The notes below the pieces were generated by a model. It was not told the origin of the DNA and ran no database searches. It saw nothing but the letters and a program-made list of their open reading frames with translations. Positions 56,666 through 60,755 of a stretch of DNA of 61,995 nucleotides are shown one piece after another; the first letter of the stretch is position 1, and each line of letters opens with the position of its first letter. The DNA comes from an uncultured Erysipelotrichaceae bacterium (GTDB lineage: Bacteria > Bacillota_I > Bacilli_A > Erysipelotrichales > Erysipelotrichaceae): the NCBI GenBank assembly GCA_944325255.1, contig CALUZH010000022.1, positions 1 through 61,995 on the forward strand. Direction: 5' to 3'. A program made the position numbers and the translations under genes.

Positions 56666-57562
56666 ATGGAAATAGTCTGTACTTTAAAACCGCAAACTAA
56701 TCTTGATAAAATTATCGGGCTTGCCGATGGTATTTTGTGCGGTTCTTATTTTGCCGACCGTCATTACTATGCCCTTTCCAAATTAAAAGAAATCCGCAAG
56801 ATAAGTAAAGAAAAGGGTCTTAAGCTTTATATTCTTATGGATACAATGATTAAGGAAGAAGATATTGACTTACTTTATGAATATTTGGAATTTTTAAATA
56901 ATCTTAGGGTTGACGGTATCTTTTTTGCTGATTTGGCTGTTTTGAGAGCGGCCGAAGATTTACATATGACTAATTTGTTGCATTATGATCCGCAAACGCT
57001 TATATGCAATTCTTTAGATGCCGTCTTCTTTTTAAAAAACGGTTTGGCCGGGCTTGTAGCTGCTCGGGAAGTAACTTATCAAGAACTTGAGAAAATGTTG
57101 CGATTTAATCCGCAAAAACTTGATGTATATATCTTTGGTCATCAAAAGATGGCTTCTTCGGCAAGATATTTCTTGCGTAATTATTTTAAGCATATCGGCA
57201 AAGAAATTGATTTAGCTGATCGGGAAGATTTAAGCATTATCGAAACTACCCGCCAAGAAGCTTATCCGATTTTGGAAAATCATTATGGCAGTAAGATTTA
57301 TACTGACTATATTTTTTGTATGTATGAAGAGTTTTTAAAATTGCGGGAAAACATTAATTGTGCCCTTGTCGATGATATCTTTTTGCCGGAATCTTTACTT
57401 ATTCATGTCCTAAAAGATTTGCGAAATTTAGATAATCATAATGTCCAAGGCTTATTAAATCGCTTAAAGGCCCGCTATATTAAAAATCATTTTTCGACAG
57501 CCTACTTGTACGCGCCAACGACCATGGCCAAAAAGGAGGGACTAAGCGATGAACAAAATTGA
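56666..57562 (+). CDS. trhP1: U32 family protein, TrhP1/YrrN type
   Basis: A 298-residue U32-fold protein of the short type that precedes a full-length U32 protein. In Bacillus subtilis the equivalent pair YrrN/YrrO (TrhP1/TrhP2) hydroxylates U34 of tRNAs reading NNN boxes such as Val, Thr and Ala. Matching features are the opening ADGILCGSYFADRHYYAL, a TIM-barrel-like pattern and YDPQTLICNS in the middle. It lacks the cysteine cluster of the long partner. It overlaps the next gene by 14 nt. Leaderless start predicted. Confidence 0.8.
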   Translation: MEIVCTLKPQTNLDKIIGLADGILCGSYFADRHYYALSKLKEIRKISKEKGLKLYILMDTMIKEEDIDLLYEYLEFLNNLRVDGIFFADLAVLRAAEDLHMTNLLHYDPQTLICNSLDAVFFLKNGLAGLVAAREVTYQELEKMLRFNPQKLDVYIFGHQKMASSARYFLRNYFKHIGKEIDLADREDLSIIETTRQEAYPILENHYGSKIYTDYIFCMYEEFLKLRENINCALVDDIFLPESLLIHVLKDLRNLDNHNVQGLLNRLKARYIKNHFSTAYLYAPTTMAKKEGLSDEQN

Positions 57563-58772
57563 ACTTTTGGCTCCGGCCAAAGATCTTTTTAAGGCGAAGA
57601 TCGCTATCCGCTATGGGGCCGATGCCGTATATGTGGGCGGCAAGAAGTATTCTTTGCGCTATCGGGCATCCAATTTCTCCCTGGATGATTTGCGGGAACT
57701 TGTAAGTTTTGCCCATCATCATCAAAGCAAGGTCTATGTTACGGTCAATATTGTCTTTCATGATGCTGATTTTTTGGGTCTAAGGGAATATTTAAAAGAA
57801 CTTGATGATCTGGGTGTCGATGCGATCATCATTGAATCTTTAGCCGTTTTGGCCTTAGTTAAGAAGATGGGCTTAAAGATGGAATGTCATATATCTACCC
57901 AACTATCAACTTTAAATTCCTTGGCTGTCAATCTTTTGGCTGACTGGGGAGCCGATCGGGTGGTCTTGGCCAGAGAATTGACAATTGAAGAGATTGAAGA
58001 TATCAATCGGCAAGCTAATCTTCCCTTGGAAGTCTTTATTCATGGGGGGATGTGCTCCAATTATTCGGGACGCTGTACCCTTTCTAATCGGATGACAAGG
58101 CGTGATGCCAATCGTGGCGGGTGTGCCCAAAGTTGCCGTTGGAAATATCATATTTATGAAAATGATAAGCTCATCTCTGATGAAGCATGTCCGCTTTCTT
58201 TATCTTCTAAAGATCTTCGGGCGACATCATATATTGCCAAGTTAATTAAAGCCGATGTCGCTTCCCTTAAGATTGAAGGGCGCATGAAGTCTGATTATTA
58301 TATTGCCCAAGTAGTCAAGACTTATCGTTTATTGATTGATGAAATTTATGCAAATGGTGATATTGATGCCAAACGTTTGGCTTATTATGACCAGGAACTT
58401 TCTAAAGCGGAAAATCGGCCAAGTGATGATGGCTTTTTTGGCGGCAATCCCGATGATAGTAAGCACCTATATGGAATTAACGGGGCCGGGGTGACGCATG
58501 ATTTTGTGGCTTATGTTTTGGCCTATGATCAGGAACATAAGTCGGCCAAAATAGAAGTTCGCAATAAATTTAATCAAGGGGATATTTTGGAGATATTAAG
58601 TCCCGATAAAACTAAAGACAATTGTCGTTTTAAAGTTATGGCGATGTTTAATGAGGAATATGATGCCCTGGAAACGGCCAATCAGCCGATGCAGATTATT
58701 TTTCTGTCCTGTCCTTATGTTTTAAGCGAGGGCGACATGTTACGAAAGGTTCGTGATTTAAATGCTGATTGA
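57549..58772 (+). CDS. trhP2: U32 family tRNA hydroxylation protein, TrhP2/YrrO type
   Basis: Full-length U32 protein (407 residues) beginning IELLAPAKDLFKAKIAIRYGADAVYVGGKKYSLR, with the cysteine-containing signature MCSNYSGRCTLSNRMTRRDANRGGCAQSC and SLKIEGRMKS. TrhP proteins make 5-hydroxyuridine at tRNA position 34, probably using an iron-sulfur cluster and prephenate. Ribosome binding site AAGGAGGG lies in the previous gene. Its 3' end overlaps the first SpoU gene by 11 nt. The Bacillus methylase TrmR that follows this step is not next to it here. Confidence 0.88.
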   Translation: MNKIELLAPAKDLFKAKIAIRYGADAVYVGGKKYSLRYRASNFSLDDLRELVSFAHHHQSKVYVTVNIVFHDADFLGLREYLKELDDLGVDAIIIESLAVLALVKKMGLKMECHISTQLSTLNSLAVNLLADWGADRVVLARELTIEEIEDINRQANLPLEVFIHGGMCSNYSGRCTLSNRMTRRDANRGGCAQSCRWKYHIYENDKLISDEACPLSLSSKDLRATSYIAKLIKADVASLKIEGRMKSDYYIAQVVKTYRLLIDEIYANGDIDAKRLAYYDQELSKAENRPSDDGFFGGNPDDSKHLYGINGAGVTHDFVAYVLAYDQEHKSAKIEVRNKFNQGDILEILSPDKTKDNCRFKVMAMFNEEYDALETANQPMQIIFLSCPYVLSEGDMLRKVRDLNAD

Positions 58773-59481
58773 AGGAGCTATTGCCATTAAGGCAGCCATC
58801 GCTAATAAGCGTCGTGATGTTATGACGGTTTATCTGGATAAAAATAAAAAAAGTCATGATTTTAATTATATTCGCAAACAATGTCATCAAAATAAAATTA
58901 CTATAGAAGAATGTTCAAGCGCTGAGATAATGACTATGGCCAGCGGCAAAAGCCATGGCGGGGTCTTGGCGGAGGTCGGTTTTCGCCGCTATGAAAGTGC
59001 CAATCATCTTTTTTTAAATAATGATATCTTTTATCTGGATGGCATTGAAGATCCCTTTAATTTGGCCTATGTCTTAAGGACCCTTTGTGCTTTTGGCTTT
59101 AAGGCTGTTATATTGCCGGAATATGATTATCGTAAGTTTGAAGGGACCTTATTAAAGTCCTCAGCCGGTGCCTTTGATATCTTGAATATTGCCTTAAGTA
59201 AGGATATTAAGCTAACTCTTGAACAATTTAAAAAAGAAGCTTATTGTCTATACGCCTTATACCGTGGACCAAAGGCTAAAGATCTTTTTAAAATAACTTT
59301 GGCCAAGAAGGCCCTCTATCTTGTGGGTGGAGAAAAGCGCGGCATTAAAGCTAAAGTTTTAGATGAGGTTGATGAACTTTGTTTCATCCCCTATGGTTTT
59401 GACTTCAAGATGGCCTTGAGTGCTGCATCTTCGGCCGATGTTTTGGCGACCTTGGTTTATGAAAAAAGGAATTATCAATGA
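58762..59481 (+). CDS. SpoU/TrmH-family RNA methyltransferase homologue A
   Basis: A 239-residue SpoU-class SPOUT protein (2'-O-ribose methylase of rRNA or tRNA). Motif 1 reads DGIEDPFNLAYVLRT: the catalytic-type Arg (about 106) is kept, but the usual NxG is NLA. Motif 2 is LVGGEKRGI. Motif 3, usually S-L-N-V in a knot loop, is altered to GFDFKMALSAASSA. SAM binding may therefore be weak. It overlaps the second SpoU gene by 4 nt (ATGA), strongly suggesting the two proteins work together. Confidence 0.82.
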   Translation: MLIEGAIAIKAAIANKRRDVMTVYLDKNKKSHDFNYIRKQCHQNKITIEECSSAEIMTMASGKSHGGVLAEVGFRRYESANHLFLNNDIFYLDGIEDPFNLAYVLRTLCAFGFKAVILPEYDYRKFEGTLLKSSAGAFDILNIALSKDIKLTLEQFKKEAYCLYALYRGPKAKDLFKITLAKKALYLVGGEKRGIKAKVLDEVDELCFIPYGFDFKMALSAASSADVLATLVYEKRNYQ

Positions 59482-60197
59482 TTACATCTTTGACAAATGA
59501 AAAAGTAAAAGCTTGGATGAAGCTTTATCAAAAAAAATATCGCCTTGATGCTTATTTAATTCTGGATGAAGAAAGTATCTTCGCGGCAAAAACATATAAT
59601 TGTTTAAAGACCTTGATATATGTGGGTGAAAAACCCTTTGATTTTAATGAAGCTTTTGCGGTTAGCGAAGAAGTGATGCTTAAACTAAGCAAGGGAAAGA
59701 AATTGTCTTTTATCGGCATCGGCCAAAAGCAGGAAGGAATTCTTCCTTTAGATGCTACAAGGATTTTGATGTTGGATGGCTTGCAAGATCCATTAAATAT
59801 CGGCAAGATCTTGAATTTGGCTATGGCCTTTGGCTTTGATGCACTGGTAGCCGGTGATGATTGTGCTGATTTATATCATGAAAAAAGTGTGGTGTTGGCT
59901 AAGACCGCTCTTTATAAAATACCCTTTATCCGCACTGATCTTTTAAAAGCTGTTGACGATTTTAAGGCCAAAGGCTTTAAGGTATATGCCACCGGCTTGC
60001 ATCAAAATAATTGTCGTTTAAGTGATTTAAATCTTAAAGATAAATTGGCTATTATTTTGGGTAATGAAGGCTCGGGTGTAAGTGAGGATTTGATGGCAGC
60101 ATCTGACGGTATCTTGAAGATTGATATGTGCAATATGGATTCACTTAATGTGGCCATGGCCGGAGCAATCACGATGTATAATTTGCAGGATGATTGA
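59478..60197 (+). CDS. SpoU/TrmH-family RNA methyltransferase homologue B
   Basis: Second 239-residue SpoU protein. Motif 1 is DGLQDPLNIGKILNLA: NxG is intact, but the conserved Arg of IIRTA is Asn (about 113). Motif 2 ILGNEGSGVS and motif 3 IDMCNMDSLNVAMAGA are canonical, so SAM should bind. The N-terminal 90 residues form a substrate-binding domain like that of RlmB/TsnR types (SLTNEKVKAWMKLYQKK). The missing Arg here and the damaged SAM motifs in A are complementary. Confidence 0.85.
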   Translation: MITSLTNEKVKAWMKLYQKKYRLDAYLILDEESIFAAKTYNCLKTLIYVGEKPFDFNEAFAVSEEVMLKLSKGKKLSFIGIGQKQEGILPLDATRILMLDGLQDPLNIGKILNLAMAFGFDALVAGDDCADLYHEKSVVLAKTALYKIPFIRTDLLKAVDDFKAKGFKVYATGLHQNNCRLSDLNLKDKLAIILGNEGSGVSEDLMAASDGILKIDMCNMDSLNVAMAGAITMYNLQDD

Positions 60198-60245: not shown

Positions 60246-60755
60246 ATGAAAAAATTACTACTTTGTTTGGCTTTAAGCCTGACGCTTTTTGCCTGTAGCG
60301 GTACTGACACACAAACAAGCGATGTAGCACCGTTTTCGACAGCTAATCGGGCCAATTTGACAATTTATACCGCTCCGCTAGAAAGCGACGCCGCAATTGT
60401 CTTGGCAGAAACCGAAAGTGAAGATGCTGCCGATGAAGACTTGGAAACTTATGCTTCCGCTTTTGAAGAAAGCAAGATTGCCATTTTGGCCGGTCTTGAT
60501 GGTATTTCTTCACTGAGCGGTGAAACAGTTGAAGAAGGTGATTTTGAAGGTCGCTACTATATCGTCCGCAATAAGGCCGATAATAGTTCATTGCATCTTT
60601 ACGAAGACGGTCATACGGTCTTAGTGGCGCTCCGCGAAAGAACAGTCACTTATTATGACAGTGAAGACTATGCTACTTACTTCAATGCGATTGCCGACGG
60701 CATTGCTACCTACGAAAAAGCTAATGAAGAATTAAACGCAGAAATTACTGCCTAA
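60246..60755 (+). CDS. Lipoprotein of unknown function, 169 aa
   Basis: Signal peptide with lipobox LFAC, followed by a very acidic, Ala/Glu/Asp-rich protein with possible helices; YYIVRNKADNSSLHLYEDGHTVLVAL suggests a central beta-hairpin. No family recognised. Ribosome binding site AGAAAGGAAG. A bidirectional terminator follows directly. Confidence 0.7.
   Translation: MKKLLLCLALSLTLFACSGTDTQTSDVAPFSTANRANLTIYTAPLESDAAIVLAETESEDAADEDLETYASAFEESKIAILAGLDGISSLSGETVEEGDFEGRYYIVRNKADNSSLHLYEDGHTVLVALRERTVTYYDSEDYATYFNAIADGIATYEKANEELNAEITA

Follow-up and report, generated by a model that had tools for sequence, protein, structure and literature searches.

Do two overlapping genes for SpoU methylases in an Erysipelotrichaceae genome encode the two halves of a single enzyme? 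The question arises from a preliminary description of the window (the whole stretch of DNA analysed, 61,995 nucleotides), in which the products of the two genes, here called A and B, were read as having lost complementary active site residues, and an obligate heterodimer with one working site was suggested. We find that B has kept one half of an active site, and that the protein supplying the other half is probably not A but a further SpoU protein, C, whose gene lies on a different contig.

Two SpoU genes overlap in the window

The two genes are present as described, each encoding 239 amino acids and joined by a 4-base overlap, ATGA. The features to which we refer are listed here, the clade being the group of genomes with a degenerate B.

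56666..58772, + strand: two U32 genes (TrhP1/TrhP2-like) upstream of A, given for context only; the second overlaps the start of A
58762..59481, + strand: gene A, RlmB-like SpoU protein, 239 aa (Pfam PF08032 and PF00588)
59077..59079, + strand: Arg106 of A motif I, present in 81/81 tabulated A sequences
59410..59421, + strand: A motif III, MALS instead of DSLN (sequence and residue tables)
59478..60197, + strand: gene B, RlmP/YsgA-like SpoU protein, 239 aa (PF00588, match to 7qiu, AlphaFold2 model, residue tables)
59787..59816, + strand: B motif I, DPLNIGKILN, with Asn107 kept and Asn113 at the catalytic Arg position (alignment to RlmR N122 and R128')
59892..59915, + strand: B residues 139–146, eroded 'RSTQGA' stretch (equivalents of RlmR R153', N154' and T156')
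60060..60080, + strand: B motif II, GNEGSGV, intact; NE in 47/49 clade sequences
60138..60152, + strand: B motif III, DSLNV, intact (RlmR D235, S236 and N238); 48/48 readable clade sequences
G000:C14:41464-42162 (contig 14 of the window's genome), − strand: protein C, SpoU protein, 233 aa, adjoining clpB-dnaJ-dnaK

Pfam places a SpoU methylase domain in both A and B, and a SpoU substrate-binding domain in A and not in B. With PF00588 scores of 73.9 bits for A, 107.9 for B and 58.7 for C, against a cut-off of 29.7, all three belong to the SpoU/TrmH (SPOUT class IV) fold family. Five SpoU proteins are encoded in the 1.4-Mb, 32-contig genome to which the window belongs. Besides A, B and C (contig 14), it has RlmB (contig 9) and a protein like TrmL (contig 29). 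On the 3' side of B lies a small lipoprotein-like gene (60246-60755) without a Pfam match; its first 56 residues match a beta-lactamase model weakly, probably through the signal peptide.

Division of the SpoU active site between protomers

Ordinary SpoU enzymes are as a rule homodimeric, and their two sites are equivalent. To each site one protomer contributes SAM, motifs II and III and the Asn of motif I, and the other the catalytic Arg and its helper residues. In the structure of RlmR bound to RNA, Arg and SAM are supplied by different protomers (PMC12123411). There, the target ribose is contacted by SAM, N122, D235, S236 and N238 of one protomer and by R128', R35', R39', R153', N154' and T156' of its partner, and the mutants R128A, N122A, D235A and N238A have 0–10% activity (PMC12123411). 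The trans residues also touch RNA, and most of the target contacts come from the Arg-giving protomer (PMC12123411).

Canonical B was aligned with RlmR using HMMER in order to map these residues. RlmR R35, R39, R128, R153, N154 and T156 correspond to B positions 32, 36, 113, 139, 140 and 142, and RlmR N122, D235, S236 and N238 to B positions 107, 221, 222 and 224.

B has kept the SAM half of the site and lost the Arg half

The best solved relative of B is Bacillus subtilis RlmP (7qiu, E = 1e-29), to which a single-chain AlphaFold2 model of B (mean pLDDT 89.9) has a TM score of 0.91. RlmP (YsgA), the 23S rRNA Gm2553 methyltransferase, is also the protein closest to B over its full length. The fold, the L30-like N-domain and the cis/trans site plan are common to B and Thermus thermophilus RlmR, the 23S rRNA Um2552 methyltransferase.

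Degenerate B is confined to a single clade of 49 related Erysipelotrichaceae, in genera coded g1, g3, g46, g48 and g19, which is supported in the B tree with an SH-aLRT of 99. Outside this clade B has the full residue set, including the catalytic Arg in 45/45 sequences. Inside it, the catalytic motif I Arg expected within the same protein for an RlmP is found in 4/49 (three g19 species and G250), and the remaining 45 have Glu, Lys, Asn, Ser or Asp, with Asn113 in the window. The contrast between clade and other B sequences is far greater than chance would give. Because the replacement varies by genus, we ruled out another single catalytic residue having taken the place of the Arg.

An unbiased scan of the 55 columns conserved in ordinary B, for which the clade was taken without g19, found nine to be lost in the clade (29, 32, 36, 106, 110, 113, 142, 144 and 146), with columns 107, 195–198, 200 and 222–225 kept. 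The nine lost columns include each of the four trans columns that are strictly conserved in B (hypergeometric p = 4e-4). Thus the earlier reading of B, as a protein with full SAM motifs and Asn at the Arg position, was correct, and B has in fact lost more, since beyond the Arg, clade B is also without the RSTQGA stretch and the N-domain residues H32 and E36. The SAM half (motif I Asn, NEGxG and DSLN) is retained, at three or four of the four scored residues per genome. As the lost and kept positions map to the trans and cis sets of RlmR, B has lost the share that is given to the partner's site and kept the share that holds SAM.

RlmP has both the catalytic Arg and an RSAQG stretch. Clade B has neither, and so cannot work as the RlmP homodimer does; judged from its residues, a B·B homodimer should be inactive. 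Without trans residues of its own, B needs another SpoU protein that still gives Arg. In one genome the B orthologue (G025:C5:47047-47760) lies within a 627-codon open frame that may be a fusion.

A does not change in step with B

Against the curated RlmB cut-off of 160.15 bits, A scores 83.8, and the genome's own RlmB scores 249.4. With a strict cut-off, an A orthologue was found in 256 of the family's 273 genomes. In most of the Erysipelotrichaceae genomes examined, A is directly preceded by a U32 pair like TrhP1/TrhP2, an order which suggests a link to wobble-uridine modification.

The residues attributed to A in the preliminary description are those of the window: Arg106 is kept, NxG reads NLA and SLN reads ALS. 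However, the motif I Asn is present and the Gly alone replaced, and the deviations are mostly not shared by A's relatives. The Gly of NxG is found in 41 of the 46 A sequences of genera g1, g3, g46 and g48. Motif III is mostly NALN across the family, two residues longer than that of B; 'ALN' occurs in most of the family, intact-B genomes included, and SLN in part of genus g3. Among the paired genera, the change from Asn to Ser in this motif is limited to two g1 species and one other. The motif I Arg and the SAG of (K/R)xSAGA are present in every A of the main residue table, this Arg half being conserved family-wide, again in genomes with intact B as well. From these alignments, the apparent losses of NxG and SLN in A are mostly old or private, and out of step with those of B. 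As the deviations do not separate intact-B from degenerate-B genomes, they are not a response to B. The covariation of A and B positions across genomes, suggested earlier as a check, was not seen, in a comparison of residues that is not a direct binding test.

The ATGA coupling had also been taken to favour pairing. Close A–B spacing is found in Solobacterium, however, where B is intact, and the coupling is therefore not evidence for a pair. In the last helix of A, E231 is present in 32/32 sequences outside the clade and 0/49 inside, and E231 and R234 were lost in exactly the clade where B and C changed. Overall, the residue comparisons indicate that A is probably a separate, older RlmB-like protein sharing an operon with B, and probably not B's partner.

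A third SpoU protein mirrors the losses of B

C belongs to a SpoU family without a close curated name, which is present in several families of the class. Canonical C is nearly universal in a sister family (f2) and intact there, as it is in genera g24 and g27; in g16 and g47 the sole change is of the motif III Asn to Ser. Within the Erysipelotrichaceae, no genus with degenerate B lacks C, few of the remaining genera have it, and clade C forms a single branch of the C tree (SH-aLRT 100). The gene for C adjoins clpB and dnaJ in the window's genome and in G046, away from B, so that the proposed partners B and C are unlinked.

In the degenerate-B clade, C has the Arg and the R(A/S)SMG stretch in 49/49 sequences, the motif I Asn in 3/49 and the motif III Asn in 0/49, and motif II is lost. 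An unbiased column scan gave the same division, with N104, G190, N191, E192, G195, D216, S217 and N219 lost and R110, R136, S138 and M139 kept. Going by these residues, C·C homodimers should be inactive. The dN/dS is about 0.1 for B and likewise for C, indicating purifying selection on each. With the frames also open, pseudogene decay of B and C was ruled out.

The losses are reciprocal in 46/46 clade genomes carrying both B and C, the clade having one evolutionary origin, such that its many species are not independent events. In these genomes C has both of the trans residues scored and 0–2 of the four SAM-half residues, B has 3–4 of the four SAM-half residues and 0–1 of the two trans residues, and two proteins of one genome thus hold complementary SpoU half-sites (46/46). 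Where both proteins occur in other genomes (n = 18), B is complete in all 18, and C is complete in 16 and lacks one of the four SAM-half residues in 2. C, unlike A, mirrors the loss of B in the same genomes, which favours C as the partner of B. The half-site loss of B agrees very well with the obligate, one-site heterodimer suggested earlier; it is the choice of A as partner that is probably mistaken, as the residues of A do not follow those of B while the residues of C do.

Genus g19 has a fully degenerate C together with a B that has the Arg and not the other trans residues. This state suggests that the loss of the SAM half of C came first, and g19 is an apparent intermediate between two homodimers and one heterodimer. 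Three incomplete g3 genomes (G187, G192 and G200) have B, and C was not found in them. In G019 (g19) the degenerate C is present and the trhP1-trhP2-A-B block absent, through either loss or an assembly gap; the best U32 match in this genome is in a 711-residue open frame.

A proposed B·C methyltransferase and its alternatives

We consider it likely that B and C function as an obligate heterodimer, a SPOUT ribose 2'-O-methyltransferase in which B holds SAM and C contributes the catalytic Arg. The observed reciprocal loss, the single clades and the purifying selection form the basis on which the association, activity and target of this enzyme are predicted. Of the two sites of an ancestral homodimer, one would have been given up in this clade. 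SAM would be seated in B, and C would complete the site at the B–C interface with its Arg and RASMG stretch, giving one composite methylation site per dimer. A single site may be enough, as one functional subunit per dimer suffices for activity in NHR (PMC4409310). The proposal is thus supported by the reciprocal loss in combination with the cis/trans plan of RlmR and the one-site activity of NHR. By descent of B, the first candidate for the target would be the A-loop of 23S rRNA, where RlmP makes Gm2553. The RNA target may be set by C, or have been shifted by it, given that in RlmR the Arg donor makes most of the contacts to the target.

Against the B·C proposal, the clade has one origin, B is unlinked to C and coupled to A, G019 has a degenerate C and no B, the three incomplete g3 genomes show B and no C, and the last helix of A changed in the clade. 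A rival is a heterodimer of A and B, A giving the Arg and B holding SAM. Its genes are adjacent, with the 4-base overlap in 38 of the 49 clade genomes measured, A keeps Arg106 and KSSAGA, the window's A has a deviant motif III, and E231 and R234 of A changed in the same clade. On the other hand, the Arg half of A is conserved throughout the family, also where B is intact, close spacing occurs in Solobacterium despite an intact B, and it was the SAM half of C, not that of A, that was lost in step with B. Although its Arg half and its coupled gene at first spoke for A, it gave way to C as the mirror image of B, and we regard an A–B pair as very unlikely. We think it about equally improbable that B is a SAM subunit shared by C and A, each of which would pair with it in turn as Arg donor for a different RNA site. 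The Arg half kept in both A and C, the altered last helix of A in the clade where B and C changed, and the conserved A–B coupling would all be accommodated, but A shows the same conservation in genomes whose B is an ordinary homodimer, which makes a separate role for A simpler.

It could also be that neither B nor C has methyltransferase activity and that each is a pseudoenzyme in its own right, retained solely for binding, such as a ribosome assembly factor that binds RNA. B alone and C alone are each without half a site, and trans residues also contact RNA in RlmR. This explanation, which we think quite unlikely, leaves unaccounted for both the SAM half of B, invariant over 48 sequences, and the reciprocity of the losses in the same genomes.

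Relation to known systems

The B·C enzyme would differ from RlmR, a homodimer with two complete sites, in that the equivalent residues are divided between B and C. A SpoU heterodimer had been thought undescribed for this class. The trypanosome proteins mt-LAF5 and mt-LAF6 are, however, a known SpoU heterodimer of mitoribosome assembly, bound to large-subunit precursors at the A-loop helix H92; their structures did not reveal methylation by the two proteins. In mt-LAF5 (PDB chain 6yxx_EE) the Arg and RAARGA are kept, Leu replaces the motif I Asn, and there is no match to motif II or III, so that by its residues it looks like an Arg-only half. The two pairs are alike in consisting of two different SpoU proteins, of which mt-LAF5 is C-like, a likeness read from mt-LAF5 only. 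They differ in that the trypanosome pair is mitochondrial and has large extra domains, whereas B and C come from two families that are ordinary elsewhere.

The yeast SPOUT paralogues Upa1 and Upa2 each copurify with the other, and the authors presume a heterodimer (PMC8994135); an inactive heterodimer subunit was suggested for this case in a SPOUT survey of 2007. Upa1–Upa2 differs from B·C in belonging to another SPOUT branch (COG2106), and reciprocal residue loss was not reported for it. In an artificial NHR heterodimer with one R135A subunit, one functional subunit was enough, as proposed for B·C, although this is a laboratory construct of one protein and not two natural proteins (PMC4409310). 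A bacterial SpoU heterodimer was not found in our literature search, which covered few subscription papers.

Implications for SpoU methylases

An RNA methylase of a gut bacterium has seemingly been split, with its SAM half in B and its Arg half in the separately encoded C. Two SpoU families that are ordinary elsewhere discarded opposite half-sites in the same species, and these losses would be a natural record of two homodimers becoming one obligate heterodimer. With this pair the cis/trans model of SPOUT catalysis could be tested directly, and the pair may serve as a bacterial model for the trypanosome mt-LAF5/LAF6 pair. The finding also cautions against annotating such SpoU genes as independent methylases.
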